The translations under genes were made by a program, and so were the position numbers. Under the pieces are notes generated by a model. The model was not told the DNA's origin, searched no databases, and saw nothing but the letters and a program-made list of their open reading frames with translations. 64,000 nt of DNA from Oscillospiraceae bacterium (GTDB lineage: Bacteria; Bacillota; Clostridia; Oscillospirales; Oscillospiraceae), in contig AP025582.1 of NCBI GenBank assembly GCA_022846075.1, positions 1,798,001 through 1,862,000 of the forward strand, given 5' to 3'. This document shows positions 13,484 through 64,000 of the stretch, piece after piece. The first letter of the stretch is position 1, and every line of letters begins with the position of its first letter.

Positions 13484-13512
13484 ATTATACAAAATTTCTC
13501 TCTCCGGGGCAA
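13484..13512 (-). promoter_or_regulatory. MATE gene promoter
   Basis: TTGCCC, 17 bp, TATAAT on the minus strand, 45 bp before the start codon. Confidence 0.7.
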
Positions 13513-13533
13513 GTCCCTGAAAGGAGCCCAGCC

Positions 13534-14703
13534 ATGTTTCTCACCGAGGCACAAGACTTGTTTCCCGAACTAAAAGCGCTGAAGGACGACCTCCACCGCC
13601 ATCCGGAGGTAAGCTTCCAGGAGCGGCGCACCACCGCCCGGATCAAGGAGCTTCTGGCCCCTCTCGGCCTCGAGCTCATCGACCTGGGCATGGAGACCGG
13701 CGTAACAGCCCTTCTCCGGGGCGGCCGCCCGGGAAAAACAGTGGCCCTCCGGGCCGACATCGACGCCCTGGAACAGCAGGAACCTGCGGGCAAGGCCGTC
13801 GTTTCCCAGATCCCAAACCGGATGCACGCCTGCGGCCACGACTTCCACACCGCCGCCCTTTACGGCGCCGCCCGGCTCCTCTCCGCCCACCGGCCGGAAC
13901 TGGCAGGGGACGTGGTTTTCCTCTTCCAGCCCGCCGAGGAATTTACCCAGGGGGCGGCGGCCATGATCCGCCACGGCCTGTGGGAAAAGCTGCCCTGTAA
14001 ACCAAATTTCCTTTTCGGCCTTCACAACCGCCCGGAAATTTCCCGGGGACAGATCGCCGTCCTCCCCGGTCCCATTATGGCGGGCAAGTCCAACTTTAAA
14101 GTGGTCTTTCATGGCAGGACCGGCCATGGCGGCTCTCCCCATAAATGTGTGGACGTCCTGGTCCCGGCGGCGGCCTTCATCCAGGCGGTCCAGAGCATCG
14201 TCAGCCGCAACGCCGACCCGCTGGAGGGCCTTGTCTGTGCCGTGTGCTCCATCCATGGCGGCTCCCCGGAGAACTTTGCCCCCGACCAGGTGACCATGAC
14301 GGGCAGCATCCGGGCCCTTTCGGAGGAGGTAAAGGCCATGGCCGAGGGCCGGGTCCGCGCTCTGGCCGGACAGATCGCCGCCGCCTACGGCTGTACCGCC
14401 CACGTGGACCTGATCCCCGAGGTGCCGGTGACCTGGAACAGCCCAGAAATGACCGCCCTGGCCCGCCGGGCGGCGGAGGCTGTGGTAGGGACGGAGAACA
14501 TCGTCCAGCCCAAGCCCGCCATGGGCTCCGAGGACTTCGCCGTCTTCGGCCGGGACGTCCCCTCCTTCTTTTACTGGGTGGGCTCCGGCTATCCCGGTCA
14601 GGAGATGCCCTGCTGGCACAGCGATCAATTCACCACCGATGACGAGGCCCTGCCCATCGCCGCCGCCCTTCTGGCCCAATCGGCGATGGTCGGGCTGGCG
14701 TGA
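13534..14703 (+). CDS. M20-family amidohydrolase / aminoacylase
   Basis: This metal-dependent family (hippurate hydrolase, N-acyl amino acid amidohydrolase, IAA-amino acid hydrolase) cleaves N-acyl amino acids. The 389-residue protein has DLHRHPEVSFQE near the N-terminus and RMHACGHDFHTAALYGAA (metal site, residues ~100-117). It also has FQPAEEFTQGAAAMI with the catalytic Glu pair, and GSEDFAVF near the C-terminus. AAAGGAG lies 7 bases before the chosen ATG. No signal peptide is seen, so it is cytoplasmic. A small helical-protein gene follows after a few bases and may be co-transcribed. The physiological substrate is unknown. Confidence 0.93.
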   Translation: MFLTEAQDLFPELKALKDDLHRHPEVSFQERRTTARIKELLAPLGLELIDLGMETGVTALLRGGRPGKTVALRADIDALEQQEPAGKAVVSQIPNRMHACGHDFHTAALYGAARLLSAHRPELAGDVVFLFQPAEEFTQGAAAMIRHGLWEKLPCKPNFLFGLHNRPEISRGQIAVLPGPIMAGKSNFKVVFHGRTGHGGSPHKCVDVLVPAAAFIQAVQSIVSRNADPLEGLVCAVCSIHGGSPENFAPDQVTMTGSIRALSEEVKAMAEGRVRALAGQIAAAYGCTAHVDLIPEVPVTWNSPEMTALARRAAEAVVGTENIVQPKPAMGSEDFAVFGRDVPSFFYWVGSGYPGQEMPCWHSDQFTTDDEALPIAAALLAQSAMVGLA

Positions 14704-14718
14704 AAGGAAATGAGCTCT

Positions 14719-15147
14719 ATGGAAGAATTACTGGAACAGCTCTGCGGTAAGGACACCAAGCTGGCCTACCAGGCCCTTCTGTCCCTGAAGGCGGAGAGCG
14801 GCTCCTCCCCCGCGGTCTATGCCTATTTTGACCGGTTTCTGAAAATGATGGACGACGCCAATTCCTACCTGCGCACCAGAGGCCTCCTTCTGCTGTGCGC
14901 CAACGCCCGGTGGGACCAGGAGAACAAACTGGACGGGGCCATAGACCGTTTTCTGGCCCATATTTCCGATCCAAAGCCCATCACCGCCCGGCAGTTTATT
15001 CAAGCCCTGCCCCAGGTGGCCCTGTATAAACCCGCTCTGGCGCCCAGGATCCGGGCCGCGCTGGAAAACGCCGATCTGAGCGCCTACCCGAACAGCATGG
15101 CGCCCCTCGTCCTCAAGGACATCACCACCGCCTTGCGGCAGATATAA
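14719..15147 (+). CDS. Conserved hypothetical helical (HEAT-like) protein
   Basis: The 142-residue product is all-helical by composition, with short repeats resembling HEAT/armadillo units (LAYQALLSLKAE, YLRTRGLLLLCANARW, ARQFIQALPQVALYKP). Similar small proteins are often annotated as SufBD-like in this bacterial group, without functional proof. The ATG at 14719 is preferred over 14710 because AAAGGA lies 10 bases upstream of the former but abuts the latter. It sits 15 bases after the amidohydrolase and is probably in its operon. Confidence 0.75.
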   Translation: MEELLEQLCGKDTKLAYQALLSLKAESGSSPAVYAYFDRFLKMMDDANSYLRTRGLLLLCANARWDQENKLDGAIDRFLAHISDPKPITARQFIQALPQVALYKPALAPRIRAALENADLSAYPNSMAPLVLKDITTALRQI

Positions 15148-15186: not shown

Positions 15187-15954
15187 TTACCCGCCCGTCT
15201 TTGTATAGGCCAGCACCGCGTCCCGCAGAAACGCGGCGCAGCCGGGCGTTTCCCCGTCGTAATAGGCGGTGAACCGCTCGTCGGTCACGTACAGCTCCGC
15301 GATCCCCCTGTGGCGTCGGGGATCATAGCTCTGCCCGCCGAAACACAGCCATTTCCCATGGAGGGCGGCGATACGCTGTCCCTCCGCCCCGGCGGGGTCC
15401 TCCCCCGCCTGGACGGCGGCGGACAGGGCGGACTTGATCTCCTCCCCCAGGGCCTCCCAGGCCTCATGCCCCGCCTGGTCTATGGAGAGAAAGGCCTCAT
15501 TGGCCTCGTCGGCCGGCCGGTCTCCGTACTTGGCCCGCACCTCTTTTCCGTAGCGTGCCTCGTTCTCCTCCACAGCCTTCTTTTGGAAGGCGCGGAATTT
15601 TTCCTCGTCTTTCATACAGATTTCTCCTTTCGCTTCCCGCAGAGTATGTTCGACTGTCAGAATGAGATCTTCCAGACGTTCCCGACGCTCCACCAGGGCC
15701 CTCAGATGGCTCTCCAGAGCCGCCTGCCGGTCGAAACCCGGGTCGTCCAGAATGGCGCCGATGGCCTCCAGCCGCAGACCCAGCTCCCGATAGAACAAGA
15801 TCTGCTGTAGCCGGTCCACCTCCGCCGGGCCGTAGAGCCGGTATCCCGCCCCGGTCGTCCGCCCCGGCTTCAAAAGCCCCAGATGGTCGTACCACCGCAG
15901 GGTCCGGGCAGTGATCCCGGACAGGTCCGCCAGCGCCTTTACGGTATATTCCAT
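15187..15954 (-). CDS. MerR-family regulator with TipAS drug-binding domain
   Basis: Residues 1-70 are a MerR winged helix (TVKALADLSGITARTLRWYDHLGLLKPGR, RLYGPAEVDRLQQILFYRELG). A dimerisation helix (~75-115) is followed by a C-terminal TipAS-type domain (~125-255) with EENEARYGKEVRAKYG and DERFTAYYDGETPGCAAFL. TipAL proteins bind thiopeptide-like or other hydrophobic drugs and switch on their own gene. Its promoter has the 19-bp spacer expected for this family, so autoregulation is likely. A new start at the internal Met before KDEEKFRAFQKK could give a TipAS-like short form, but no clear ribosome site was checked in detail. Confidence 0.92.
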   Translation of the reverse strand: MEYTVKALADLSGITARTLRWYDHLGLLKPGRTTGAGYRLYGPAEVDRLQQILFYRELGLRLEAIGAILDDPGFDRQAALESHLRALVERRERLEDLILTVEHTLREAKGEICMKDEEKFRAFQKKAVEENEARYGKEVRAKYGDRPADEANEAFLSIDQAGHEAWEALGEEIKSALSAAVQAGEDPAGAEGQRIAALHGKWLCFGGQSYDPRRHRGIAELYVTDERFTAYYDGETPGCAAFLRDAVLAYTKTGG

Positions 15955-15978
15955 TGGTCATCCCTCCTGACAGGATCC

Positions 15979-16009
15979 AGCATACTCCTTGCCGTTACGA
16001 AAAGGTCAA
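15979..16009 (-). promoter_or_regulatory. MerR-type promoter/operator (19-bp spacer)
   Basis: TTGACC and TATGCT are separated by 19 bp, the long spacing that MerR-family activators untwist. The spacer holds a CCTT...AAGG dyad. It lies 25 bp before the regulator start codon. Confidence 0.75.
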
Positions 16010-16150
16010 GGGAAAAATCAAATCATCGAGCGCTGTTTTTTGATGCTCTGATTTTGCCCGAAACAGGACGGAAAGACCTCGCCAGGTTTTTTTCTTCCCC
16101 GTCTGTATGTTACACGAGAAACACTGACAGCCTATGTCAAGTTTCTCAAA

Positions 16151-16184
16151 TAAAAAAGAGACAGACGAATGTCTGTCTCTTTTC
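16151..16184 (-). terminator. Terminator after rplT
   Basis: AGAGACAGAC / GTCTGTCTCT stem with loop, followed on the minus strand by a T-run. It lies just past the rplT stop. Confidence 0.8.
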
Positions 16185-16195
16185 TCGCTCTGAAA

Positions 16196-16552
16196 TCAGG
16201 CCAGCTGAGCCTTGGCAAGCTGGGTGAGCTGGGTAAAGGCGGCCTTGTCGTTGACGGCCATCTCAGCCAGCATCTTGCGGTTGATGGTGATGCCGGCCTT
16301 CTTCAGGCCGTTGACAAAGGTGGAGTAGTTCATCCCGTTCATCTTGCAGGCGGCGGAGATACGGGTGATCCACAGGGAGCGGAAGTCACGCTTCTTCAGG
16401 CGGCGGCCGATGTAAGCGTACTTCAGGGACTTCATGACCTGCTCATTGGCCATCTTGAAGTGCTTGGACTTGGCGCCCCAGTAACCCTTCGCCAGCTTCA
16501 GGACCTTATTTCTTCTCTTGCGCGTCATCATCGCGCCTTTAACTCTAGCCAT
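16196..16552 (-). CDS. rplT: 50S ribosomal protein L20
   Basis: The 118-residue, Lys/Arg-rich protein has the family start [20 protein letters not shown] and the motif [16 protein letters not shown]. It binds 23S rRNA early in assembly and, in Firmicutes, represses its own operon through a leader upstream of infC. It is the last gene of infC-rpmI-rplT. Confidence 0.98.
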
Positions 16553-16589
16553 GGTATTTGAAACCTCCTATATTCGAGTAAAAATCAAA

Positions 16590-16793
16590 TTATTTGTAAG
16601 GGATCATACGCTTGATGGTGGCCGCATTGGTATCATCAGCGTAGGCGCCCTTGCGGAGGCCTCTTTTGCGCTTGGTGTCCTTGCCGTGGCCGTTGAGCAG
16701 GTGGGACTTATAGGCGTGGGCCCGCTTGACCTTGCCGGTCTTGGTCAGGTTGAATCTCTTTTTCGCCCCGGTATGGGTCTTGAGTTTAGGCAT
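16590..16793 (-). CDS. rpmI: 50S ribosomal protein L35
   Basis: The 67-residue basic protein PKLKTHTGAKKRFNLTKTGK matches the L35 family and has the usual length. It lies between infC and rplT in the standard order and has an AGGAG-like site upstream. Confidence 0.97.
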   Translation of the reverse strand: MPKLKTHTGAKKRFNLTKTGKVKRAHAYKSHLLNGHGKDTKRKRGLRKGAYADDTNAATIKRMIPYK

Positions 16794-16826
16794 GGTGTAT
16801 TCTCCTTTATCGTAAAATGAACTTGC

Positions 16827-17357
16827 TTACTTTTTAGGCTCCTTGGCGATCTTAGAGGAGAGGAAAATGGACATATGACGGCCGTCCAGCTTGGGCTCCT
16901 TGTCCATGGCGGCCACTTCGGCGCACTCCTCGGCGAACTTCAGCAGCAGCTCCCGGCCGATCTCGGTGTGGGCCATTTCACGGCCGCGGAAGCGCACGGT
17001 GACCTTCACCCGGTCCCCTTCGCCCAAAAACTTCTGGGCGTTGCGCAGCTTGACGTTGAAATCGTTCACGTCGATGCTGGGAGACATGCGCACTTCCTTG
17101 ATCTCCACCACATGCTGATTCTTCTTGGCCTCTTTCTCCCGCTTGGTCTGCTCGAACTTGAACTTGCCGTAATCCATGAGCTTGCACACGGGGGGGACGG
17201 CGTTGGGAGAGATCTTCACCAGGTCCAGGCTGGCCTCCTCGGCCTTCTCCAGGGCCTCCCGGGCGGACATGATGCCAAGCTGCTCGCCGTCGGCGGCGAC
17301 CAGACGCACTTCCTTGTCCCGGATCTCTTCATTGATCTGATGACCTTTGTTGCTGAT
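16827..17357 (-). CDS. infC: Translation initiation factor IF-3 (AUC start)
   Basis: IF-3 binds the 30S subunit and checks the start codon. The 176-residue product begins SNKGHQINEEIRDKEVRLV, then the linker and C domain (PPVCKLMDYGKFKFEQ, VTVRFRGREMAH). No ATG, GTG or TTG lies at the right place. GGAGGT is followed after 7-8 bases by ATC (17357-17355), exactly where homologues begin. infC genes are known to use rare codons such as AUU so that IF-3 discriminates against its own mRNA; here AUC seems to play that role. It is the first gene of infC-rpmI-rplT. Confidence 0.92.
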   Translation of the reverse strand: MSNKGHQINEEIRDKEVRLVAADGEQLGIMSAREALEKAEEASLDLVKISPNAVPPVCKLMDYGKFKFEQTKREKEAKKNQHVVEIKEVRMSPSIDVNDFNVKLRNAQKFLGEGDRVKVTVRFRGREMAHTEIGRELLLKFAEECAEVAAMDKEPKLDGRHMSIFLSSKIAKEPKK

Positions 17358-17531
17358 ACGAAAGCACCTCCATTCAACACACACACGTTTTTCACATACA
17401 AAAAACACGGAGCCGAAACGGCTCCGTGCAACAAGACAAAACACCGCCGGATATTCCGGCGAGCGATACCATGTTGACCCCTTCGGCTCTGGCCGGGAGG
17501 TGAGGACGAAACCGTTCCTTCTTTATTGTGC
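17358..17531 (-). promoter_or_regulatory. infC operon leader, probable L20-type autoregulatory element
   Basis: The ~175-base leader contains a CGCCGGAATATCCGGCG hairpin and, next to infC, a strong terminator (CACGGAGCC / GGCTCCGTG plus TTTTTT at 17398-17428). In Firmicutes the L20 leader lets free L20 promote premature termination at such a site. The presence of an attenuator is direct; the L20 assignment follows from position and gene order. Confidence 0.75.
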
Positions 17532-17537
17532 CTTGAT

Positions 17538-17566
17538 AGTATACCAGTCCACGCCTGCTCTGTCAA
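17538..17566 (-). promoter_or_regulatory. infC-rpmI-rplT promoter
   Basis: TTGACA, 17 bp, TATACT on the minus strand: a near-perfect sigma-A promoter. Confidence 0.88.
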
Positions 17567-53069: not shown

Positions 53070-53570
53070 TTAGGAGCAGGTCCCTCCCAGCAGCTTTCGC
53101 AGAGAGCTGGAGCGTTTTTCCGCCAGATACGCTTCTTCCGTATAGCACTTCAGGGCCCCGGCGTAACAGGCCCGCACACAGGCGGGCTCCAACCCCCAGC
53201 GCACCCGTTCGACGCAGCCGTCGCACTTGTGCATTTTATGATCCCCAAAACCAAAGGCCGGGGCGCCATAGGGGCAGGCCATGGAGCAGGAGTGGCAGCC
53301 AATACAGTTGGTAGTATCATACAGTGTGAGACCGGTGTCCGGGTCCTTTTTCAGGCATCCGCTCGGGCAGGCCATAACACAGGGGGCATCCTCACAGTGC
53401 ATACACGCAAGGGAGGCATAGCTCACGCCCTCCCCCGACTCTACACGGAATACGCTGCGGAAGGGCATCTCCGTCCGCTCTACGGCAATATCGTTCTGGT
53501 CGATGCACGCGATGGCGCAGGCGCCGCAGGCGGAGCATTTTTCAGGGTCCACATCAAAGATCCATCTCAT
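53070..53570 (-). CDS. Four-cluster 4Fe-4S ferredoxin-type subunit of the Mo oxidoreductase
   Basis: The 166-residue protein has four cysteine groups: CSACGACAIAC, CMHCEDAPCVMACPSGC, CIGCHSCSMACP, and CDGCVERV...CVRAC. This is the DmsB/NrfC-like pattern for four [4Fe-4S] clusters. It starts three bases after the Mo subunit stop and carries electrons between the FAD subunit and the Mo site. No Tat signal is seen, so the complex is cytoplasmic. Confidence 0.93.
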   Translation of the reverse strand: MRWIFDVDPEKCSACGACAIACIDQNDIAVERTEMPFRSVFRVESGEGVSYASLACMHCEDAPCVMACPSGCLKKDPDTGLTLYDTTNCIGCHSCSMACPYGAPAFGFGDHKMHKCDGCVERVRWGLEPACVRACYAGALKCYTEEAYLAEKRSSSLRKLLGGTCS

Positions 53571-53573
53571 CTC

Positions 53574-55721
53574 TTACGTCCCTCCCTCTACCTTCCGGAT
53601 ATTGACCCGGGTCGATTTGAACGCCGGAAACCCAGTATAGGGGTCTACCGTCGAAATGGGGACCAACTCATTGACATCGGCCTCGCTGTACCCGTGGCAG
53701 GTCTGGACACTGCCCGGAGCCACCGTCCGGGTCGGCAGGGCCAGCAGCCGGATGGCGCCATAATCATTGTATAGCTCGATCTCATCGTCCTTTTTGATCC
53801 CCAGTCGCCGGGCGTCTTCCCAGTTAATCTCCGCCACTGGGCGGGGCCGCATGGCCCGCAGGCTGGGGACCTTGTGCAGACGAGAATGAAGCGTATTTGG
53901 AAGCCGGGAGCCGCTGTCCATAATAAAGGGATACTGTTCCGCGTCCATCCCAGCCCCGGCGGGAGACCATGTGGGGATAGAGGCGTAGCCAAGGTCCGGG
54001 GACAGTTCCTCGATCTGAACCGAACTGATTTCAAACTTCCCGCTGGGTGTGGCAAATCCCGCCTCGGAAAACTGTCGGGGGACATAGGTCTCAAGATTTT
54101 GGGCCGGGAGAGGCCGACGGGTCTTTCGCAGCTCCTCCACGGTGACACCGGTCCCCTCTATGATGTAGTCCAGGCAGGCGTCGTACCCCTTCTGCATTAG
54201 GGTATCCTTCGTTTTCAGCAGACGGGAAAGGTCCACCAGGACGTCCAGGTCTGAGCGGGATTGGCCCAGTTTTGGGATGGCCTGTTCCGATAAATAGATG
54301 TATCCAGCCCGGGCCGTAAAGTTTTCCCGCTCGAAGGAAGAGCAGACCGGCAGGACGATGTCGGCGTACCGGCAGGTATCCGTCATGAACAGCTCTGTGT
54401 TGACAAAAAAGTCTGGCTTGTCTTTCAAATCCGCCGCCAGCCGGTCCGATTCAGGGAACATACGGTGGTTCATACCCATACCAAAAATCATCTTGATGGG
54501 GTAGGCATGCTTCCCCTCCAGCCACTCCGCCAGCTTGATGGCCTGGCACTCATGATAGTTCCGGTTCCCCCAGAGCGGGAAATCATCCACCCCCATTTTG
54601 GGCCTGCCTTCCGGCACATAGCCCCAGGTGAACTCCGCCTCCCGGGTGGAAAAGCCGGACATAGTGTGGTTCCAGGAGTAATGGTCCGGCACCGTGCCGC
54701 CCAGTCGGTCATAGTTTCCGGTAATGCCCTGAAGCGCAATCATGGCCCGGTAATTCTGGAACCCATTGCTGTGATGGGTGATAGGCGAGGCGCTCTCTGT
54801 CATGGCGACGGGTCCATTGGTGCCGTAAATCTCCGCTGCCTTGTACAAGTCGTCCCCCTTCACGCCTGTGATCCTGAACACCCGGTCCACGTCGAACTGC
54901 CTTACATACTCCGCATATTGGTCAAACCCGTAGACATACCGGTCTATATACTCGTGGTCGATCCAATTGTTATCGATGAGAAGTTTCCCCAGGCCCAGCG
55001 CCAGGGCACCGTCCGTGCCCGGGTTCAGCATAAGATGTACGTCGGCCAGATGCGTGACAGTTGGGGTCACGCGGGGATCGATCACAACGATCCTCATCCC
55101 AGCTTCCTTGCGCTCCTGCAAGGTTTTCACCAAAGGTGGATTGGAAAAATAGGGGTTGAGGGACCAGCCCATCAATATGTTGGCGTTGGCGATATCCGCC
55201 CGGCCAAGGCAGCCGGTGGTCGCGTACCAGGCCAAATGGGTGGCCGTCTGACAACAGCAGCAGTCCGAGGCAAAGTTGGGCGAGCCGAAATAGTAGGCAA
55301 ACCGGTGGAGAAAGGGCCGGTACCATTTATCATACCCCGCCATGAACAGCACGCTTTCCGGCCCGTACCGCTCCCTGACCTGTTCCAGATTGCGGACGAT
55401 CTCGGCATAGGCCTCGTCCCAGGAGATGGGCTCAAATTTCCCCTCTCCCCGGGGACCCACCCGGCGAAGCGGGGTCATCACCCGGTCTTTGCGGTAGATG
55501 TATTCCTTATTGGCTGCCCCCTTGGCGCAGATGTGTCCGCCGCTCATGGGGTTTTCTCGGTCCCCTTCCACCTTCAGGAGAACTCCGTCCTTCACATAGG
55601 CATCCAGCCCGCAGTGCCAGCTGGGACAGCAGATATCACACACCGTCTTTTTGATCTCGATCCCGGTCTCCGGGCAAGGGATCTTCGCCTTCAGCAGGCG
55701 CTCTGCACGCTCAGCATCCAT
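53574..55721 (-). CDS. Molybdopterin-dependent oxidoreductase, catalytic subunit (DMSO reductase superfamily)
   Basis: The 715-residue protein has an N-terminal 4Fe-4S site (C28, C31/C32, C37, C65; CDICCPSWHCG ... GGHICAKG). K67 follows the last Cys, as in the electron-relay position. The bis-MGD domains come next, with a C-terminal MGD-binding domain (TPSGKFEI, WEDARRLGIKKDDEIELYND). Where the Mo ligand lies in the family, the sequence is GSPNFASDCCCCQTA, four cysteines in a row (C154-C157), so a Cys ligand is likely. No Tat signal. It overlaps the FAD subunit by 11 bases. The substrate is unknown; relatives include reductases, dehydroxylases and acetylene hydratase. Confidence 0.93.
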   Translation of the reverse strand: MDAERAERLLKAKIPCPETGIEIKKTVCDICCPSWHCGLDAYVKDGVLLKVEGDRENPMSGGHICAKGAANKEYIYRKDRVMTPLRRVGPRGEGKFEPISWDEAYAEIVRNLEQVRERYGPESVLFMAGYDKWYRPFLHRFAYYFGSPNFASDCCCCQTATHLAWYATTGCLGRADIANANILMGWSLNPYFSNPPLVKTLQERKEAGMRIVVIDPRVTPTVTHLADVHLMLNPGTDGALALGLGKLLIDNNWIDHEYIDRYVYGFDQYAEYVRQFDVDRVFRITGVKGDDLYKAAEIYGTNGPVAMTESASPITHHSNGFQNYRAMIALQGITGNYDRLGGTVPDHYSWNHTMSGFSTREAEFTWGYVPEGRPKMGVDDFPLWGNRNYHECQAIKLAEWLEGKHAYPIKMIFGMGMNHRMFPESDRLAADLKDKPDFFVNTELFMTDTCRYADIVLPVCSSFERENFTARAGYIYLSEQAIPKLGQSRSDLDVLVDLSRLLKTKDTLMQKGYDACLDYIIEGTGVTVEELRKTRRPLPAQNLETYVPRQFSEAGFATPSGKFEISSVQIEELSPDLGYASIPTWSPAGAGMDAEQYPFIMDSGSRLPNTLHSRLHKVPSLRAMRPRPVAEINWEDARRLGIKKDDEIELYNDYGAIRLLALPTRTVAPGSVQTCHGYSEADVNELVPISTVDPYTGFPAFKSTRVNIRKVEGGT

Positions 55722-56982
55722 TCCTTTTTCCTCCTATCCGCTCGATCCACGTCTCTGGAAAGCCTTGCTGCTCTAGAAGCCCGGCTTCCCAATCATTCAG
55801 CCCCAGCTCCGGGGACTCCAGCCGCTTTTTAAAAATACTTTTGAGCACGCCGCAGGTCCGATAGGCGTCCAGCAGATTGATGCACTGGATCTCTCCTTGG
55901 GAACAGACCGCCTCCGCCCAAAGGCCCTGAACGGGATTCTCATAAAAGATCCGCTCTCCGGGAAGCTGGCAGTCACCAAAGCTGATAAAATCCATGTCCA
56001 TGAAATGGGTGATGTTATGCAGGATCTCCCCCCTGCGCTCCGCCCTGTCTCCGGCCATGTTCAGCCCGGCGCAGGTCCCCTGCCTTCCCGCGTTCTCCCA
56101 AAGCCCAATGATTCGATTTTCCCCGGATTGAAGGTCCACACCCTCACAACAGTCGCCGGCCGCGTAGATCCCAGGGGCCGACGTGCGCATATATTGGTCC
56201 ACTACGATCCCACGGCCGGCCTTGACCTCTCCTGGGTCCACCAGAGACGTGGCGGCACGGGTACCGATACAGATAGCCGCAAGATCGGAGACCAGCTCCC
56301 CGCCGCTGGTGAGGGACACACGCAGATGCTCCCCATCCCGGACAACATCGTTCAGCCCCTCCCCAAACCGCAGCACGATGCCCATTTTCTCCAACCGCTC
56401 CTGGATCCGGCGCGCCGTTTCGGGCAAGGCGGCCAGGGGAAATATATGGGGAGCCATATCGATCAGCGTGCACTTTACGTTCCGGGCGGCCAACAGCTCC
56501 ACCAGCTTGATGCCCGCCATGGAGGCCCCTGCCACCAGCGCGCTGGACGGCGGGTGCTCCTCCAATCTGGCCCGCAGACGGTCCGCGTCTTCCACCGTCC
56601 GCATCAGAAACACACCTTCGTCCTTTGCTACCGTCACCGGCGGGCAAAAGGCCTCAGCGCCGGTGGCAAGGAGAATGGCGTCAAAGCGCAGGCGCTCCCC
56701 GGTCTCCAGGACTACCTCCCTCTTTCCTGCCGCCACCTGGCGCACCCGGCACTCCGTATGAAGCGTCAGTCGGAGTGAAGCGGCGATCTCCCGCAATGAG
56801 CCATAGGGAAACATTCCTTCCCTGGGCAGTTTTCCGGCCGCGTAATACGTCGTCAGCATAGGATTGTAAGGTGGGTGGGCGGTATCGCTGAACACGTGTA
56901 TGGCGCTGGCGGCATCCCGGCTTCGGATAGCTCTGGCCGCATGGTATCCCGCCTGTCCGAACCCAACGATGGCAAATTTCAT
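55711..56982 (-). CDS. FAD/NAD(P)-dependent oxidoreductase subunit of the Mo enzyme
   Basis: The 423-residue protein is a pyridine nucleotide-disulfide-type flavoprotein. It has an N-terminal FAD fold (FAIVGFGQAGYHAARAI), ILLATGAEAF, a second dinucleotide fold (ALVAGASMAGIKLVELL), and GIYAAGDCCEGVD near the second FAD contact. It resembles the NADH-rubredoxin/nitrite reductase flavin subunit. It is the first gene of a FAD-Mo-FeS operon, so NAD(P)H is the likely electron partner. Confidence 0.92.
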   Translation of the reverse strand: MKFAIVGFGQAGYHAARAIRSRDAASAIHVFSDTAHPPYNPMLTTYYAAGKLPREGMFPYGSLREIAASLRLTLHTECRVRQVAAGKREVVLETGERLRFDAILLATGAEAFCPPVTVAKDEGVFLMRTVEDADRLRARLEEHPPSSALVAGASMAGIKLVELLAARNVKCTLIDMAPHIFPLAALPETARRIQERLEKMGIVLRFGEGLNDVVRDGEHLRVSLTSGGELVSDLAAICIGTRAATSLVDPGEVKAGRGIVVDQYMRTSAPGIYAAGDCCEGVDLQSGENRIIGLWENAGRQGTCAGLNMAGDRAERRGEILHNITHFMDMDFISFGDCQLPGERIFYENPVQGLWAEAVCSQGEIQCINLLDAYRTCGVLKSIFKKRLESPELGLNDWEAGLLEQQGFPETWIERIGGKRNGC

Positions 56983-57049
56983 CCTGCTTGCTTCCCCCTT
57001 TCTGTTTCAGGAGCCCACAGTTATGTGCTGGGACTCCTCTTCATCAGAA

Positions 57050-57107
57050 AGTTTATAATATTTAATTTATTTGGTCAATATAAATTAAATATATTTTAAT
57101 TTATTTG
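57050..57107 (-). promoter_or_regulatory. Promoter/operator of the Mo oxidoreductase operon
   Basis: TTGACC, 17 bp, TAAACT lies about 70 bp before the FAD gene. The spacer holds TTTAATTTA (57061-57069), facing TAAATTAAA (57081-57089) as a perfect 9-bp inverted repeat. A second copy TTTAATTTATTTG lies at 57095-57107. An upstream alternative promoter (TTGACA-17-TATCTA) is also possible. Confidence 0.65.
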
Positions 57108-57182
57108 TCTGATATAGATAAATATTGTTGTCTTTTTTGTCAATTCAGACAAACATTCTTTGTTCTCTTTTGATGTACAGGC

Positions 57183-57222
57183 AAAAAAACAGGCCAGCCC
57201 TTCGGTGGGCTGGCCTGTTTTT
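57183..57222. terminator. Terminator of the XRE-cupin gene
   Basis: AAACAGGCCAGCCC / GGGCTGGCCTGTTTTT with tetraloop TTCG-like; A and T runs on both sides. Confidence 0.9.
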
Positions 57223-57230
57223 ATATTGAA

Positions 57231-57809
57231 TTAACTGTTCTCCCGCCCCTCTGTTCCGGGGATCACCACCCAAAGAACTTCTGTCTCCCCCGTGGAGGAG
57301 TTTGCAACCACATGTTTCCGCTCTGCCTCAAAGGTGATTGCGTCACCGGGATTCAAAATATAGGTGCGGCCATCCAGATCGACCCGCAGTTTACCGGATA
57401 AGACGAAGCCAAATTCATACCCCCTCTGGGTATGTGGATTCAGCTCCGGAACCCTTTCTGTGGTGGCCCCCGGCTTGAGCTTGTTTACCGATACGCAAAG
57501 CGCTTTCAAATTTTCCCGGGTCAAGAAATACTGGGTCCACTTCTTACTGGAAATCCCAACAGGGATACGCTCATTGGCCCGAATCACGACGCCACTCTCA
57601 CGTTCCCGCCCCGTGTGGTTGAGGAAAAACTCAGACACGTCGGTATCCAGTGCGGCCGCAATAGAAAGCAGAGTATTGATCGAGGGATTGGCTTTATCGT
57701 GTTCAATCTGGCTGATCAGGCTTGAGGTCACGCCGGACATCAGAGCTAGATCTTTCATCGTTAAATTTCGGGCTTTGCGCAGTTCGCCGATCGTGCTGCC
57801 CAAACTCAT
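57231..57809 (-). CDS. XRE-family regulator with C-terminal cupin sensor
   Basis: Residues 1-60 are an XRE HTH (LRKARNLTMKDLALMSGVTSSLISQIE in parts). Residues ~115-190 are a small cupin (HTQRGYEFGFVLSGKLRVDLDGRTYILNPGDAITFEAERKHVV in parts) that should bind a small molecule. This PuuR-like layout usually controls catabolic genes beside it. It lies between the Mo operon and the TRAP operon and probably senses their substrate. The ATG at 57809 is chosen by homology of the start (SLGSTIGELRKAR); the ribosome site is modest. Confidence 0.92.
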   Translation of the reverse strand: MSLGSTIGELRKARNLTMKDLALMSGVTSSLISQIEHDKANPSINTLLSIAAALDTDVSEFFLNHTGRERESGVVIRANERIPVGISSKKWTQYFLTRENLKALCVSVNKLKPGATTERVPELNPHTQRGYEFGFVLSGKLRVDLDGRTYILNPGDAITFEAERKHVVANSSTGETEVLWVVIPGTEGRENS

Positions 57810-57880
57810 ACTTTCACTTCCGCTTCTTATGTTCTGGCCCGGCACATATAAAAAGCGTTTTATGTTACGGACTTATTGGT

Positions 57881-57909
57881 ATTATAACACAGTTTCATTT
57901 ATGACGCAA
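57881..57909 (-). promoter_or_regulatory. XRE-cupin gene promoter
   Basis: TTGCGT, 17 bp, TATAAT on the minus strand. No TTTAATTTA repeat lies in it, so it may escape autoregulation. Confidence 0.7.
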
Positions 57910-58055
57910 TTATAGATTGGAATGTTTTTCCTTCCAAGCATTGCATTTTATCTATATTTTACATAAAAATATCCTCATTTTTTGTCGAATATAATTATTT
58001 TCCAGGGAAGCCGCCTTTTCTGGTTCTGAACATTTTTCTTTTCTTTTTTTCTTCG

Positions 58056-58137
58056 TTAAATTAAATAAAATTTAATCATCTTACCACACTTTGGTTAATA
58101 TCTATTGACAGAATACGCTTTTAAGATTAAATTTAAT
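58056..58137 (+). promoter_or_regulatory. TRAP operon promoter with two operator-like inverted repeats
   Basis: TTGACA (58105-58110), 17 bp, TAAATT (58128-58133). The perfect palindrome ATTAAATTTAAT (58126-58137) lies across the -10. A second inverted repeat TTAAATT...AATTTAA lies at 58056-58075, upstream of the -35. The motif class matches the Mo operon promoter. Confidence 0.72.
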
Positions 58138-58228
58138 TTATGATTTGTGTGAGTGTCGCATAAATCAAGACTGCTTTCCGTGCAGTCGCAGGAAGACCGG
58201 GAAAAAAACAAATGAGGAGGAAACGCAA

Positions 58229-59308
58229 ATGAAAAAAAGAGGAACGACCCTTATCCTGGCACTGGTCTTGCTCGTTTCCATCACCGCTTGCGGCGGTGAT
58301 GGCGGCCAGCCAAGTCCCTCCCCTGCGTCCGGCAGTACTAGCGAGGCCCCAGCGCGTACCGAGGTCCTCACCCTGAAACTGGGAGGGCTTGGCAGTGGCC
58401 GCGAAGATGACTGTCAATCTTATCCCATCAATAAGTTTATTGAGGTGGTAGAAGCAGAGACCGACGGAATGATCCAGATCGAATACTATCCCAACGGCCA
58501 GCTGGGCGGCGAGCCGGAGATGATGGACCAGGTCCTCTCTGACACTCTGGACTTCGGCGTGCTCTCCGCCAACGTGCTGGGCACTGTGTGGCCCGAGCTG
58601 TACGCCTACAATCTCCCCTTCGCCTTCGATGATCTGGAGACTCTGTGGGACGTCTGCGGCATGGAAAAGACCGACTTCTATTTTGCCATCCGCGACGCCG
58701 TGAACGACTCCGGTCTGGCCCACTTTATCACCACCTTCTCCGCCGAGTTCCGGGGTTGCCAGAACACCACCCGGCCCATCCGCAGCCCTGAGGACTTTAA
58801 GGGCTTGACCTTCCGGGTTATGGCAGGTGAGATCTTCACCGACATTTTCCGCTCTCTGGGTGCCTCCACCGCCACTGTCACCTTTGCCGAGCTCTATACC
58901 GGCCTTCAGCAGGGCATTGTGGACGGCGAGGACGTGGGGCTTTCCATGTATTACGACAACAAGTTCTATGAGGTAGAGAAATACGCCACTCAGTTCAACA
59001 TCACCGCCACCATCAACTCCCTGATCGTGTCCAACGCCGCCTGGGACAAGCTGACCGAAGCGGAGCGGGAAATCATCAACAAAGCCGCTGCCGAGGCTGA
59101 ACTGGCCAGCTATGACCACGTGTCCCAGAACGTGGACCACTACGTAGATCTGGCCAGGGAACAGGGCGTGGATGTGATCACCCACGACCAGCTCACCGCC
59201 GAGGAGGTCCAGGCCTGCAAAGACGCGGTCGCCCCCATGTGGGAGAAGTACAAAGACGTGGTGGGAGACGAGGTCTACACCGCCCTGACCACGGCTCTTG
59301 GCCGGTAA
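58229..59308 (+). CDS. dctP: TRAP transporter solute-binding lipoprotein DctP
   Basis: The 359-residue protein has a lipoprotein signal ending VSITAC (C21) and then a Ser/Pro-rich linker. The DctP fold follows, with EYYPNGQLGGEPEMMDQVLSDTLDFGVLS (cited in parts), GLTFRVMAGEIFTDIFRSLGA (part), and QQGIVDGED. DctP proteins bind carboxylates and carry an Arg (here in FRVM) that clamps the acid group. AGGAGG precedes the ATG. It is the first gene of the TRAP operon. Confidence 0.95.
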   Translation: MKKRGTTLILALVLLVSITACGGDGGQPSPSPASGSTSEAPARTEVLTLKLGGLGSGREDDCQSYPINKFIEVVEAETDGMIQIEYYPNGQLGGEPEMMDQVLSDTLDFGVLSANVLGTVWPELYAYNLPFAFDDLETLWDVCGMEKTDFYFAIRDAVNDSGLAHFITTFSAEFRGCQNTTRPIRSPEDFKGLTFRVMAGEIFTDIFRSLGASTATVTFAELYTGLQQGIVDGEDVGLSMYYDNKFYEVEKYATQFNITATINSLIVSNAAWDKLTEAEREIINKAAAEAELASYDHVSQNVDHYVDLAREQGVDVITHDQLTAEEVQACKDAVAPMWEKYKDVVGDEVYTALTTALGR

Positions 59309-59323
59309 CAGACACCCTCTTTC

Positions 59324-59363
59324 GCCGGGCCGCCGCTTCGTTCCATTCCAGCGGCGGCCCGGC
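59324..59363 (+). other. Intercistronic stem-loop after dctP
   Basis: GCCGGGCCGCCGCT / AGCGGCGGCCCGGC is a perfect 14-bp stem with no T-run. It probably protects the abundant dctP transcript from 3' decay or weakens read-through. Confidence 0.65.
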
Positions 59364-59413
59364 ACTTCCGGGAACAAGCCATTCCACATTGTTTAAGAAA
59401 GGATGCGTGTACC

Positions 59414-60811
59414 ATGGAGAAAAGTTATTCCCGCCGCCTGTCTGAGTTCCTGGCCGGAATGAAGTATGAGGATATTCCCCAAGAGGCCGTCGATCAGGCC
59501 AAGCGGCTCACCCTGCATGTGATCGGCGCCTCCATTGCCGCGGCTCCCATCGAACAGACCGCCAAAGTCATCGGCATGACGGAAAAAAAGGGCGGCATCG
59601 CCGAGGCCACGGTTTGGGGCAGCAAGGGCGGAAAGGTTCCCGCCAAAGAAGCCGCCTTCGCCAACGGCACCATGGCCGACATCATGGACTGGGAGGACTG
59701 CGCCTGGACCGGCCACCCCTCCGCCGGCCACATTCCGGCGGCTATGGCGGTGGGCGAAAAGCTGGGGCTGTCCGGCAAGGATTACCTGCTCTCCGTCATC
59801 GCCGCCCACGAGGGGTATCACCGCATCGCGATGTACGCTCAGCCCAGCCGGGAATACATTACCAGCGGGCAGGGCTGGGGGCTGGTGAGCTGGCAGGTGT
59901 TTGCCGCCGCCATCGCCGCCGCCAAGGCCATGGGCCAGGATGCCGACCAGATGGAGCAGACTTTGGGCGCCGCATTCTACAACGCCATCGTCTCCTGCAA
60001 CAAGCACAGCGAGGGCACCGCCAAATCTGACATCTACCACTACGCCCACGGCTGGTGCGCCCGCAACGGCGTTGTCTCGGCCGATATGACGCAGCTGGGC
60101 TTCGACAACTGCTACGGCGCGCTGGACGGCCCCAACGGCTACTGGCACAAGGTATCTGATCAGGTCGACTGGGAGTGGCTGGTCAAGGACTACGGCACCA
60201 AATGGTATATCTGTGAGACTTACCTGAAACACTGGCCTGCCAATATGTGGGTCCAAACACCCCTGGAGGCACTTAACCTTTTGATGAAGGAGCATCCCTT
60301 CACCGCCGACCAGGTGGAAAAGATCCATGTCTCCCCTCTGGTCCCCTTCATCTGCGGCGACTACTCCAAGACCACCCGCGGCACCCTGGACGCCCAGTTC
60401 AGCATCCCCTACTGCCTGACCGCCTATATCCTGGATCCCCATATGGGCGCCCAGTGGTTCTCCAAAGAGATGCGCAATAATCCCCAGCTTATCGAATTTG
60501 CCCAGAAATTTGAATACTCCGGAGGCCCCAGAGTTCCCAACGACAATTTTGATGAGTTCAAGACCGGATCCTTCCCCGAGATCACGGTGGAGGTCACGTT
60601 GAAGGACGGCACTGTTCTCTCCAAAACGATGCGTTACCCCAAGGGCCACCCCCGCAACAACTTTACCATGGACGAGCAATTCGACCATTTCCGCCTGTGC
60701 TGTTCCCCCTACCTGCCCGCCGAGCGAATCGAGAAGATCATCGCCTTGGTGGACCAACTGGAGACCCTGGACAATATCGGCAAGCTTGCCGAGCTGTGTG
60801 TCCTGGCCTGA
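59414..60811 (+). CDS. MmgE/PrpD family protein (first copy)
   Basis: The 465-residue protein belongs to the MmgE/PrpD family, which includes 2-methylcitrate dehydratase, cis-aconitate decarboxylase and iminodisuccinate epimerase. It has FANGTMADIMDWEDCAWTGHPSAG (cited for the conserved N..D..HPS motif), KSDIYHYAHGW with a conserved Lys, and LDAQFSIPYCLTAYI. The usual His of the NGxxxHxLD motif appears to be Asp. It is closely similar to the next gene, implying duplication. The reaction is unknown. Confidence 0.9.
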   Translation: MEKSYSRRLSEFLAGMKYEDIPQEAVDQAKRLTLHVIGASIAAAPIEQTAKVIGMTEKKGGIAEATVWGSKGGKVPAKEAAFANGTMADIMDWEDCAWTGHPSAGHIPAAMAVGEKLGLSGKDYLLSVIAAHEGYHRIAMYAQPSREYITSGQGWGLVSWQVFAAAIAAAKAMGQDADQMEQTLGAAFYNAIVSCNKHSEGTAKSDIYHYAHGWCARNGVVSADMTQLGFDNCYGALDGPNGYWHKVSDQVDWEWLVKDYGTKWYICETYLKHWPANMWVQTPLEALNLLMKEHPFTADQVEKIHVSPLVPFICGDYSKTTRGTLDAQFSIPYCLTAYILDPHMGAQWFSKEMRNNPQLIEFAQKFEYSGGPRVPNDNFDEFKTGSFPEITVEVTLKDGTVLSKTMRYPKGHPRNNFTMDEQFDHFRLCCSPYLPAERIEKIIALVDQLETLDNIGKLAELCVLA

Positions 60812-60846
60812 ACCCCGGCCATTCGTGATTGGAAGGAGTGTCAAAT

Positions 60847-62250
60847 ATGGAAAAAACCTATTCTCAGATCATGTCTGAGTATGTGGCCGGCCTGAAGTTT
60901 GAGGATATCCCCCAGGATGTCATCGACCAGGCCAAGCGGGTCACCCTGCACGCCATCGGCGCCAGCGTCGGCGGCTATCCCCTTCCCCTGACAGGCAAAG
61001 TCATCGGCTACACCCAGAGAAACGGCGGCACCGGCGAGGCCACCATCTGGTGCAGCGACGGGCGCAAGGTCCCCGTGGAGGAAGCCGCCTTCGCCAACGG
61101 CACTATGGCCGACCACATGGACTGGGAGGACTGCACCTGGACTGGCCACCCCTCTGCCACCGGCGTTCCCGCCGCCATGGCTGTGGCGGAAAAACACAAG
61201 AAGAGCGGTCGGGAATATCTCCTGGCCCTGGTTGCCGGATATGAGAGCTCCCAGCGCATCGCCATGGCCGCCCAGCCCACCCGGGACTATGTCACCAGCG
61301 GCCGGGACTGGGCCCTGGTGAGCTGGCAGATCTTTGCCGCCTCCATGGCCGCCGCCAAATTGATGGGATTCGACGCCAAGCGGATCGAGCAGGTGCTGGG
61401 TGCCTCCCTCTATCAGGCCCAAATCGCCGCCAACAAACACAGCACAGGCAGCGGCAAGTCTGATATCTACCACTATGCCCACGGCTTTGCCGCCCGCAAC
61501 GGGGTCGTGGCGGCCCAGGTCACCGAATTGGGCTACGATAATTGCTACCATGCGCTGGACGGGGACGACGGCTACTGGCACATGGTCTCCGACCGCCTGG
61601 ACGAGAGCTGGTACACCAAGGACCTGGGCAAGCTCTGGATGATCCGGGACGCCAACTATCTCAAGCACTGGCCCGCTAACATGTGGGTCCAGATCCCCCT
61701 GGAGGGCATGAGTGAGCTGGTCAAGGAGCAGCCCTTCCAAATGGAAGAGGTGGACAAGATCCGCGTCACCCCCGACCTGGACTTCATCATGGGCGTCTAC
61801 TCCAAGACCACTCGAACCATCCTGGACGCCCAATTCAGCATTCCATACTGCCTGACCGCTTTCCTGATGAACCCCAAGATGGGCGCCCATTGGTTCACCA
61901 AGGAGATGCTCAACAACCAGGAGCTCATTGATTTCACAGACAAATTTGAGGCCTTCGGGGAGAAAATCGTCTTCTACGACAACTTTGAAATCTTCAAGAG
62001 CGGCTCCTTCCCGGAGTTCAAGCTGGAGGTCTATCTGAAGGACGGCAGGGTCCTCCACAAGAGCAAGCAGTTCCCCAAGGGGCACCCCAAAAACAACTTC
62101 ACCCTGGCGGAGGAGTATGACCATTTCCGCCTGTGCTGCTCCCCCTATCTGCCGCAAGAGCAGATCGAACGCTTCATCGCCATCGTAGACAAGCTGGAGG
62201 AGGCGCAGGATCTGGACGAGCTGATCGGCCTGACCACCATTCGGGGGTGA
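60847..62250 (+). CDS. MmgE/PrpD family protein (second copy)
   Basis: The 467-residue protein keeps the same motifs as the first copy (NGTMADHMDWED, TGHPSA, KSDIYHYAHGF, LDAQFSIPYCLTAFL), with differences scattered through the length. Two copies with conserved catalytic regions suggest a heteromer, or two steps on related substrates. AAGGAG precedes the chosen ATG. It lies 35 bases after the first copy and 4 bases before dctQ. Confidence 0.9.
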   Translation: MEKTYSQIMSEYVAGLKFEDIPQDVIDQAKRVTLHAIGASVGGYPLPLTGKVIGYTQRNGGTGEATIWCSDGRKVPVEEAAFANGTMADHMDWEDCTWTGHPSATGVPAAMAVAEKHKKSGREYLLALVAGYESSQRIAMAAQPTRDYVTSGRDWALVSWQIFAASMAAAKLMGFDAKRIEQVLGASLYQAQIAANKHSTGSGKSDIYHYAHGFAARNGVVAAQVTELGYDNCYHALDGDDGYWHMVSDRLDESWYTKDLGKLWMIRDANYLKHWPANMWVQIPLEGMSELVKEQPFQMEEVDKIRVTPDLDFIMGVYSKTTRTILDAQFSIPYCLTAFLMNPKMGAHWFTKEMLNNQELIDFTDKFEAFGEKIVFYDNFEIFKSGSFPEFKLEVYLKDGRVLHKSKQFPKGHPKNNFTLAEEYDHFRLCCSPYLPQEQIERFIAIVDKLEEAQDLDELIGLTTIRG

Positions 62251-62254
62251 CGCC

Positions 62255-62791
62255 ATGAAAACGCTGAAAAAGGTCTGGGATGCCTTCGTCAAAGGCTACA
62301 CCTGGGTAGAACTGAACTTCATCGCCGCCTTCACCATGATCATCGGCATCCTCATCATCTACGAAGTCATCATCCGGGCTTTGGGATTTCAGGGGATCAA
62401 GTGGATGGAGGAGATGGGCCGTTTCATGCTGGTGGTCACCACCACCATCGGATGCAGCTACGCCGCCCGGGAAAACGGCCACATGGTCATGGATACCTTT
62501 TACCAGCTACTCAGGCCCCGGGCCGCCTACTGTCTCAAATCGGTGGCCTACTTCATCAGCGGGCTCCTGTACAGCTACATGGGCTACTACGCCATCCAGT
62601 GGTGCATTCGCCTGTTCAAGATGAAGAAAAAGATGGAGAGCGTCAACTTCCCTACTTACGTGATGTGGATCTTCGTCTGTATCGGGCTGTGCACCATGGG
62701 CCTTCGCTATTTCATTGAGACTGGAAAATGCGCCGGCAGAGCCGTCAAGGGCGCGCAGGAGTTCACGGAAGTGAACACCAAAGAGAATTGA
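62255..62791 (+). CDS. dctQ: TRAP transporter small permease DctQ
   Basis: The 178-residue protein has four hydrophobic helices (ELNFIAAFTMIIGILIIYEV, GRFMLVVTTTIGCSYAA, AYFISGLLYSYMGYYAI, MWIFVCIGLCTMGLRYF). EEMGRFMLV is a typical DctQ segment. It links DctP to DctM. Confidence 0.93.
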   Translation: MKTLKKVWDAFVKGYTWVELNFIAAFTMIIGILIIYEVIIRALGFQGIKWMEEMGRFMLVVTTTIGCSYAARENGHMVMDTFYQLLRPRAAYCLKSVAYFISGLLYSYMGYYAIQWCIRLFKMKKKMESVNFPTYVMWIFVCIGLCTMGLRYFIETGKCAGRAVKGAQEFTEVNTKEN

Positions 62792-62804
62792 GGAGGGAAA
62801 ACGT

Positions 62805-64000
62805 ATGGCAGTCGTAATGATCGTGTTTTTCGTTCTCCTCATCATCGGCGTCCCCGTGGCTCACGTGGTGCTGGGCGCCGCCGCCATCGGCATCATCGCC
62901 GGCGGCAACAACGGAATCCTGCTGGCCCAGCAGACTGTGCTGGGCATGAACAGCTATGTCCTGCTGGCCGTACCCTTTTTCATTATCTCCGGCGACCTGG
63001 CTGCCAAGGGGGAGACCTCCCGCCGCCTGGTCAACGCCATCAATGCCTTCCTGGGAAGCATCCGGGGCGGGCTGGGCATCGCCACCATTTTTGCCTGCGC
63101 CCTCTTCGGAGCCATCACCGGCTCCTCCATCGCCTGCGTGGTGGCCATCGGCGCGCTGATGCTTCCCCAGCTGCTGGAGGCCGGCTATCCCAAGCCGCTG
63201 GTCCTGGGCATTATCACCACCGCGGGCACGCTGGGGGTCATGATCCCGCCCTCTATCCCCATGCTCCAGATCTCGGTGGCTATGGGCACCTCCGTGGCCG
63301 CGGGCTTCACCTCCGGCTTTGTCCCCGGGATCCTTACCGCTATCTTGATGAGCGTTTGGGTCTACCTCTACGCCAAAAAGCACAACGTCCCCAAGCAGCC
63401 GCCCATGCCCTGGCGGCAGAAGCTCCATGTCCTCAAGGAGAGCTTCTGGGCCCTCATGTTCCCCGTGGTCATCCTGGGCACCATCTACGGCGGCCTGGCC
63501 ACCCCCACCGAGGCGGCGGTCATCTCGGTGCTCTACGTCCTGTTTGTGGAGATCTGCATCTACCGCACCACAAGCATCAAGCAGCTGTGGAACACCATCA
63601 AGGGCTCCACCGTCAGCGCCGCCACCCTGACCCTGACCATCGCCACAGCCCAGGTCTTTGTGTGGTTCATGACCACGGAAAATATCCCGGCCATCCTCTA
63701 CAACACCCTGACCTCGGCCATCTCCGGCAAGTACGCCCTGCTCTTCCTGCTGTGCCTGCTGTTCCTCATCGTGGGCTGCTTCACCAACGTGGCCACCGTG
63801 GTCATCATCATCGGCCCCATCCTGGCGCCGGTGCTGGAGTTTTTCACCATCGACACCCTGCAGTTCGGCGTCCTGGCCATCCTGTTGTCCCAAATCGGCT
63901 TTGTCTCTCCCCCCTTCGGCCTGTGCCTGTTCGTGGCAATGAAGGTGGCGAAGGCCTCTATGCCGGAGGTAGTAAAGGGCTCCATCCCCTTCCTGGTCTG
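62805..64000 (+). CDS. dctM: TRAP transporter large permease DctM (runs off the window)
   Basis: The frame is open from an ATG behind AGGAGG to the window end, giving about 398 residues of an expected ~425-430. It begins VVMIVFFVLLIIGVPVAHVV and has ITGSSIACVVAIGALM and GVMIPPSIPMLQISVA, the DctM scaffold and substrate regions. With DctP and DctQ it forms a Na+-driven importer of organic acids. The C-terminal ~30 residues are missing here. Confidence 0.94.
   Translation, partial: MAVVMIVFFVLLIIGVPVAHVVLGAAAIGIIAGGNNGILLAQQTVLGMNSYVLLAVPFFIISGDLAAKGETSRRLVNAINAFLGSIRGGLGIATIFACALFGAITGSSIACVVAIGALMLPQLLEAGYPKPLVLGIITTAGTLGVMIPPSIPMLQISVAMGTSVAAGFTSGFVPGILTAILMSVWVYLYAKKHNVPKQPPMPWRQKLHVLKESFWALMFPVVILGTIYGGLATPTEAAVISVLYVLFVEICIYRTTSIKQLWNTIKGSTVSAATLTLTIATAQVFVWFMTTENIPAILYNTLTSAISGKYALLFLLCLLFLIVGCFTNVATVVIIIGPILAPVLEFFTIDTLQFGVLAILLSQIGFVSPPFGLCLFVAMKVAKASMPEVVKGSIPFLV

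Follow-up and report, generated by a model that had tools for sequence, protein, structure and literature searches.

Gene content of the locus

We analysed a 64,000-nt stretch of the genome of an Oscillospiraceae bacterium (contig AP025582.1, positions 1798001-1862000; the genome, 3.23 Mb long, is a single contig; hereafter the window). Its final part carries three gene blocks: a trio of minus-strand genes for an oxidoreductase with flavin (FAD), molybdenum (Mo) and iron-sulfur (FeS) subunits, a gene for an XRE-cupin regulator, also on the minus strand, and, on the plus strand, a dctP-prpD-prpD-dctQ-dctM operon in which two genes of the MmgE/PrpD family stand among those for a tripartite ATP-independent periplasmic (TRAP) transporter. 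Open reading frames (ORFs) and Pfam matches returned every gene named in a preliminary description of this DNA, in the order and on the strand given there.

53070..53570, minus: FeS subunit of the trio, DmsB/HydN-like 4Fe-4S ferredoxin (Pfam Fer4_11, Fer4)
53574..55721, minus: Mo subunit, catalytic, bis-molybdopterin guanine dinucleotide (bis-MGD) type of the dimethyl sulfoxide (DMSO)-reductase superfamily; probable metal ligand Cys157
55711..56982, minus: FAD/NAD(P) subunit (Pfam Pyr_redox_2)
57231..57845, minus: XRE-cupin regulator (Pfam HTH_3, Cupin_2); probable start 57809, from comparison with relatives
58229..59308, plus: DctP, TRAP substrate-binding lipoprotein (Pfam DctP; NF037995 at 170.8 bits, passing the cut-off of 50)
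59414..60811, plus: PrpD1, MmgE/PrpD family (Pfam MmgE_PrpD_N and _C)
60847..62250 (listed ORF start 60829), plus: PrpD2, 61% identical to PrpD1
62255..62791, plus: DctQ, small TRAP permease (Pfam DctQ)
62805 or 62817 to beyond the window edge at 64000, plus: DctM, large TRAP permease (Pfam DctM)

The FAD and Mo genes overlap by 11 bp. DctP, DctQ and DctM together make up a TRAP transporter, with DctM above the cut-off of TIGR00786 (347.7 bits against 268.45) and the Arg of the DctP motif FRVMAG sharing its alignment column with an Arg in both 4oan and 4n8g. Outside the window, dctM is followed by a major facilitator superfamily (MFS) gene; for this end of the operon, locus L004 gives 10817-12076 and 12220-13341. 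The regulator carries both domains of an XRE-cupin protein and scores 77.6 against a cut-off of 211 with NF007408, the model of PuuR, a cupin regulator of putrescine use, and so falls short of that family. No signal peptide or twin-arginine motif was seen when the N-termini of the trio were read by eye, which is the basis for calling it cytoplasmic.

An operator-like motif shared by both promoter regions

The intergenic regions on either side of the regulator gene contain the following features.

57050..57078, minus: candidate trio promoter TTGACC-17-TAAACT (9/12 matches), overlapped by one operator-like copy
57058-57070 (minus) and 57080-57092 (plus): exact operator-like copies at the trio, matching WTAAATTAAATWW
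57094-57103, minus: slightly divergent operator-like copy at the trio, TAAATTAAAA (fifth copy overall)
57185..57222, no strand assigned: perfect 16-bp inverted repeat, terminator-like, between regulator and trio
58056..58068, plus: operator-like copy upstream of the dctP promoter
58105..58141, plus: dctP promoter, with TTGACA at 58105 and a second hexamer ending at 58133

The promoter repeats reported in the preliminary description are real: across all 3.23 Mb of the genome WTAAATTAAATWW is matched just four times, twice in each of the promoter regions of the trio and of dctP. The same four in the window compare with a mean of 0.00 in 100 shuffles, for a pattern that was derived from these very sites; a reversed control (1 + 1 matches) keeps an identical ten-base core and is therefore not independent. 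The copy at 58129-58141 covers the -10 region of dctP, and the TTGACA-N15-ATTAAATT arrangement of this promoter is repeated identically before dctP in L079 and L080, two loci of other genomes, where, as in a third (L081), an XRE-cupin relative of 50-51% identity precedes dctP. The candidate trio promoter is weak by itself, its region giving 4 sites against 2.4 in shuffles. The inverted repeat, which is absent from the terminator-like sites listed by our promoter/terminator scan, separates the regulator from the trio, so that three transcripts are probably made. Common control of the trio and the dctP operon is well supported by a motif that the genome carries at these two promoters and at no other place, and the placement of its copies over the dctP -10 region and over the candidate trio promoter would fit a repressor.

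The molybdenum trio

The domains Molybdop_Fe4S4, Molybdopterin and Molydop_binding, all above cut-off, place the Mo subunit among the bis-MGD enzymes. Its fold agrees, being nearest to that of acetylene hydratase, with ArrA, FdhF, PsrA and NapA also close; the N-terminal Cys motif is shared as well. Cys157, invariant across 22 aligned rows, falls on the Cys of acetylene hydratase (2e7z) that serves as metal ligand there.

The best NCBIfam model is TIGR01591, Fdh-alpha, and formate dehydrogenases are among the nearest folds, as would be expected if the enzyme were a formate dehydrogenase or a formate-linked CO2 reductase for general cell use. However, the score is 292 bits against a cut-off of 666.25, the RGQNN stretch of formate dehydrogenases is replaced, the residue following the ligand Cys is variable, and the genome holds four divergent paralogs, each near its own transporter genes; we consider this explanation very improbable. 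With the fold and the ligand Cys held in common, the enzyme might instead be an acetylene hydratase-like hydratase of an unsaturated PrpD product, its FAD and FeS subunits serving to keep the metal reduced. Against this, the position of Asp13 in acetylene hydratase, its catalytic residue, is occupied by Cys32 in the window protein and by Thr, Ser or Ala in relatives; acetylene hydratase is not known to have FAD/FeS partners; and a subunit that connects the enzyme to NAD(P) suggests a net redox reaction, so that we think a hydratase improbable.

The FAD subunit finds its best PDB sequence match in 8c0z_E, named as a potential subunit of aldehyde oxidoreductase (AOR), and its best NCBIfam model in PadH (181.3 against a cut-off of 475); the FeS subunit reaches 123.5 bits with TIGR02951, under the cut-off of 214.1. 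As in AorABC and in PadH/PadI of phenylglyoxylate dehydrogenase, an FAD/NAD(P) subunit is joined to a multi-cluster FeS subunit. The catalytic subunit sets the trio apart, since that of AorABC is AOR-type and phenylglyoxylate dehydrogenase is a thiamine enzyme, whereas here it belongs to the bis-MGD DMSO-reductase superfamily and shows no AFOR domain at E<=0.001, which places it outside the AorABC type. We found no characterised member of this class of Mo enzyme.

In-frame stops in some relatives had suggested selenocysteine. The motif was located by script in 2/6 loci (L008, L009), where the stop either precedes the gene or coincides with the C-terminal end, and the suggestion was rejected.

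The PrpD pair

Both PrpD1 and PrpD2 carry the N- and C-terminal Pfam domains of the MmgE/PrpD family above cut-offs. The model of PrpD2 is nearest to the fold of iminodisuccinate (IDS) epimerase, with a Z of 45.9 versus 44 for cis-aconitate decarboxylase. Six conserved residues have been listed for the family (H85, D88, H99, H150, K198 and K266 in 2HP0 numbers; PMC12290011), and D88, H99 and K266 of IDS epimerase are retained in the window pair. Unlike IDS epimerase, to which they are 22% identical, the window proteins are encoded in tandem within a TRAP operon and differ at other positions of this set (see below).

Recurrence of the genes in other genomes

An alignment of the PrpD subfamily, scanned against the genome collection, gave 113 relatives, the best 80 of which were kept and represent 75 distinct loci. 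Their gene content was obtained by comparing codon-scored gene calls with reference proteins; a Mo gene was counted at >=550 aa and >=38% identity, which excludes weaker Mo-like genes (as in L095), and trio subunits were counted anywhere within a locus. Presence counts are lower bounds because of short contigs (L119, for example). A Mo subunit was present in 34/75 loci and the complete trio in 33/75. An opine-dehydrogenase-like gene accompanied PrpD in 55/75, including 32 of the 34 with Mo, an Amdase-like gene in 41/75, an ornithine-cyclodeaminase-like gene in 27/75 and aspartate-dehydrogenase-like neighbours in a few; two or more PrpD genes were found in 31/75. Comparable pairings of Mo enzyme and acid uptake are thus seen repeatedly among other bacteria, many of gut origin.

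The preliminary description had proposed a search for the same gene set in other gut Oscillospiraceae. Mo, TRAP and two PrpD genes do occur jointly in five loci (L114, L126, L130, L141 and L153), but the nearest relatives of the TRAP/PrpD half have no trio. These are L079 (uncultured Flavonifractor), L080 (uncultured Eubacteriales bacterium) and L081 (Breznakiella homolactica), which share the XRE-cupin gene, dctP, prpD (single in L081, duplicated in L079 and L080), dctQ, dctM and the MFS gene (44, 45 and 36% identical, respectively, at the equivalent position); L079 and L080 also have an opine-dehydrogenase-like gene. The TRAP/PrpD half can therefore exist without Mo, which gives the trio the look of a step added later to it.

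Nine PrpD loci (L107, L110, L120, L121, L122, L124, L128, L132 and L152), all without a counted Mo gene, have within <=6 genes of PrpD a flavoprotein of about 562 aa where whole, of the fumarate-reductase type as read on L121, accompanied in several by a ferredoxin of 65-88 aa. This cluster at Mo-less loci favours a reductive step. In L083, which belongs to the PrpD clade of the window, the run of genes that contains two PrpD genes also encodes CysK (above cut-off), a cystathionine-lyase-like and a PatB-like protein, and an ABC permease whose closest match is the cystine one.

Two further observations concern PrpD loci. The Butyrivibrio metagenome-assembled genomes (MAGs) behind L083 and L085 have two PrpD genes in one run with genes for ABC permeases and for proteins resembling CysK and PatB, possibly a sulfur-compound operon. 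Next to trio-PrpD operons we also saw moeA, mobB and a mobA-like gene (L042, 6476-8186; L046, 17622-18200).

From the Mo side, a relative at E<=1e-100 was present in 40/250 genomes of the family, the present genome counted. Forty Mo loci were fetched from 47 places outside this genome, and the 37 with a Mo gene of >=400 aa were used; L068, L071 and L076 were left out for want of such a gene call. (L071 holds, at 15385-17553, an aldehyde ferredoxin oxidoreductase-family gene adjoining a small FeS gene.) Among the 37, an FAD-type gene was found in 23, an FeS gene in 35, PrpD in 9, a PatB-like gene in 7 and an MR/MLE-like gene in 5. In L065, L066, L067 and L074, Mo and FeS genes stand beside MR/MLE (enolase-superfamily) and, by eye, transporter-like genes; L066, L067 and L074 are missing the FAD subunit. 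No listed match of the window Mo protein exceeded 50% identity among 400 family and 391 class genomes, the family search overlapping in part with the 250-genome sample. Eight further Mo loci (L173-L180) include four with PrpD (L177-L180, the first three lying on the contigs of L104, L151 and L127) and four without; among the latter is L173 (5423-13716; 50% match to the window Mo), where a UbiD-family gene and one for a beta-eliminating lyase are close to the trio.

Linkage and inheritance of the trio and PrpD

The present genome has a second trio-PrpD locus, L006 (genome 470001-490000), where positions 3113-15104 encode on one strand a trio, ornithine-cyclodeaminase-, Amdase-, PrpD- and octopine-dehydrogenase-family proteins, an amino-acid permease and a sigma-54 activator; opine-dehydrogenase- and ornithine-cyclodeaminase-type genes are thus found here as in PrpD loci elsewhere. 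Both PrpD sites of this genome are <=7 kb from a Mo relative; random placement of two sites put them within 10 kb in 129/200000 cases. Its other two trios (L037, 8903-16392; L038, 8396-15156) lie near a gene for a PatB-family C-S lyase, called above cut-off in L037 and by likeness of the gene start in L038, and near NhaC-type or amino-acid transporters.

On a quick tree of the PrpD proteins the label "Mo" changes 13 times by gain or loss, at least 11 times if starred branches are considered. The Mo proteins adjacent to PrpD are scattered over different parts of the Mo tree, in which the window protein sits on a long branch and in no supported small group. The 13 changes and this scatter indicate that the link between trio and PrpD is not one simple inheritance, and the window is most simply seen as a separate joining of a trio to a PrpD clade otherwise devoid of it. 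Recurrence and the shared motif argue for linked function; the Mo-less relatives indicate that the trio is not obligatory.

A proposed pathway and the evidence for and against it

We propose, with a probability of roughly 0.45, that the locus is a substrate-induced catabolic one built of two modules, encoding a pathway under repressor control that handles a succinate-like acid with an N- or S-linked substituent. Judging from sequence and position, the XRE-cupin protein would bind AT-rich half-sites that cover or adjoin the core promoters and so repress the trio and the dctP operon, until the substrate or an intermediate occupies its cupin domain. The TRAP system, by strong family assignment, would import the organic acid. 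The PrpD pair may then take a proton from C2 of a succinate-like acid bearing an N- or S-linked group and either epimerise the acid or eliminate the group, the tandem copies perhaps serving two stereoisomers. The trio, for which NAD(P)-linked redox chemistry is strongly indicated by family, would transfer two electrons to or from some compound of this pathway; a reductase serving as electron sink is more likely here than a dehydrogenase. The opine-dehydrogenase-, ornithine-cyclodeaminase- and aspartate-dehydrogenase-like genes of other PrpD loci could act on C-N bonds or imines, by cleavage or reduction.

The proposal draws on the motif confined to the two promoters, the repeated and not simply inherited proximity of trio and PrpD, the PrpD2 fold with its three retained residues, the sulfur-related gene run of L083, the aldehyde oxidoreductase match of the FAD subunit and the flavoprotein cluster of Mo-less loci. 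Several results weigh against it or qualify it. The first group concerns the link itself. In the family sample a Mo relative was present in 9/10 genomes with the PrpD subfamily and in 31/240 without it (Fisher 2.7e-7), which speaks for the link, but this test is biased and inflated, the PrpD alignment having been built in part from PrpDs found through Mo. Moreover, the two genome samples overlap with the 75 PrpD loci (L042-L049 are L138, L133, L149, L139, L123, L141, L126 and L153), and some of the changes on the PrpD tree may represent loss instead of gain. A 22-row clade of the quick tree holds the window pair, and none of its 16 other loci, several of them on short contigs, has a counted Mo gene; whole-genome searches at E<=1e-80 gave 0/8 for this clade (Breznakiella complete, the others drafts or MAGs), as compared with 5/6 for the other PrpD clade. 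Conversely, 28/37 family Mo loci had no PrpD within the stretch examined, likewise 14/23 of those with an FAD-type gene. Finally, PatB-like, MR/MLE and beta-eliminating-lyase genes also accompany Mo loci, so the trio may act on a substrate of another kind.

The second group concerns the PrpD substrate. The candidate folds are separated by 1-2 Z only, and a PDB search with the subfamily profile puts cis-aconitate decarboxylase first (171.5 versus 152.3 bits). H85 is replaced by Asp in all 33 subfamily rows aligned and H150 by Gly or Ala in the window pair, while the alignment at K198 is doubtful, so that the set of six residues is incomplete and a succinate-type substrate is insecure. This fold and this profile match would be expected if the pair belonged to propionate/methylcitrate or itaconate metabolism, as 2-methylcitrate dehydratase, cis-aconitate decarboxylase or methylsuccinate isomerase. 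Yet the replaced H85 and H150 are residues of the known members (PMC12290011), and PrpD1 stays far under the cut-offs for 2-methylcitrate dehydratase (TIGR02330, 40.3 against 458; PRK09425, 47.3 against 575), neither of which PrpD2 matches at E<=0.001; by these scores and residues such a role appears even less probable than that of a hydratase for the Mo enzyme.

The two halves could also share their control and nothing else, the trio disposing of or supplying electrons through an unrelated compound. The Mo-less state of the window's PrpD clade and the many family Mo loci without PrpD would agree with such an arrangement, whereas trios of several lineages adjoin PrpD, opine-dehydrogenase- or Amdase-like genes, and this genome has its second trio-PrpD locus; we regard separate chemistry as rather unlikely. 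A single pathway for both halves is plausible on the sequence evidence. The preliminary description had inferred just that, and had named relatives routinely carrying the trio without the TRAP/PrpD half as evidence to the contrary. The shared motif and the recurring Mo trio/PrpD combination speak for its inference, the counts of 0/16 and 28/37 do not, and the contrary evidence is half in place, in that most family Mo loci lack PrpD while L176 of a same-genus genome (8424-15270) has a trio adjoining TRAP genes, again with no PrpD.

Relation to known systems and significance

The preliminary description knew of no described system with this set of genes; our literature search agrees, having found no description of it in the titles and abstract beginnings of open-licence papers, nor any paper whose title refers to a 2-succinocysteine pathway of this kind. 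The usual TRAP transporters differ from the one in the window, where two PrpD genes separate dctP from dctQ. Compared with acetylene hydratase and formate dehydrogenases, the Mo enzyme has neither the catalytic Asp13 nor RGQNN, and its gene stands with those of an FAD/NAD(P) and an FeS subunit. DMSO-reductase-family enzymes of gut Coriobacteriia and a xanthine-oxidase-family enzyme of Enterocloster have been described, both distinct from the window trio (PMC11574389, PMC12771579). The former include the catechol dehydroxylases of Eggerthella and Gordonibacter, which are likewise reported to be bis-MGD reductases of gut anaerobes acting on organic substrates (PMC11574389); they are Coriobacteriia enzymes, whereas here an NAD(P)-linked trio is found with PrpD, a comparison made by description.

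More tentatively, and with less confidence than we place in the proposal for the locus itself, these genes may represent an undescribed family of anaerobic pathways, common in Clostridia, that degrades succinates with an N- or S-linked group, such as compounds resembling opines, iminodisuccinate or 2-succinocysteine. A new PrpD subfamily would act on C2, and a bond-cleaving or deoxygenating reduction would fall to a Mo enzyme of a new class, soluble, Cys-ligated and NAD(P)H-linked, and the window would be a separate assembly whose regulator is shared with Mo-less relatives. What could have been an isolated oddity becomes a recurring, testable gene set, in which a class of Mo enzyme, an uncharacterised PrpD subfamily and opine-type genes come together in many species. 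The shared motif offers a direct handle on it, as the inducer of both halves should be the substrate or a compound near it. Since MmgE/PrpD homologs are reported to be mostly uncharacterised (PMC12290011), a substrate found here would also inform that family.

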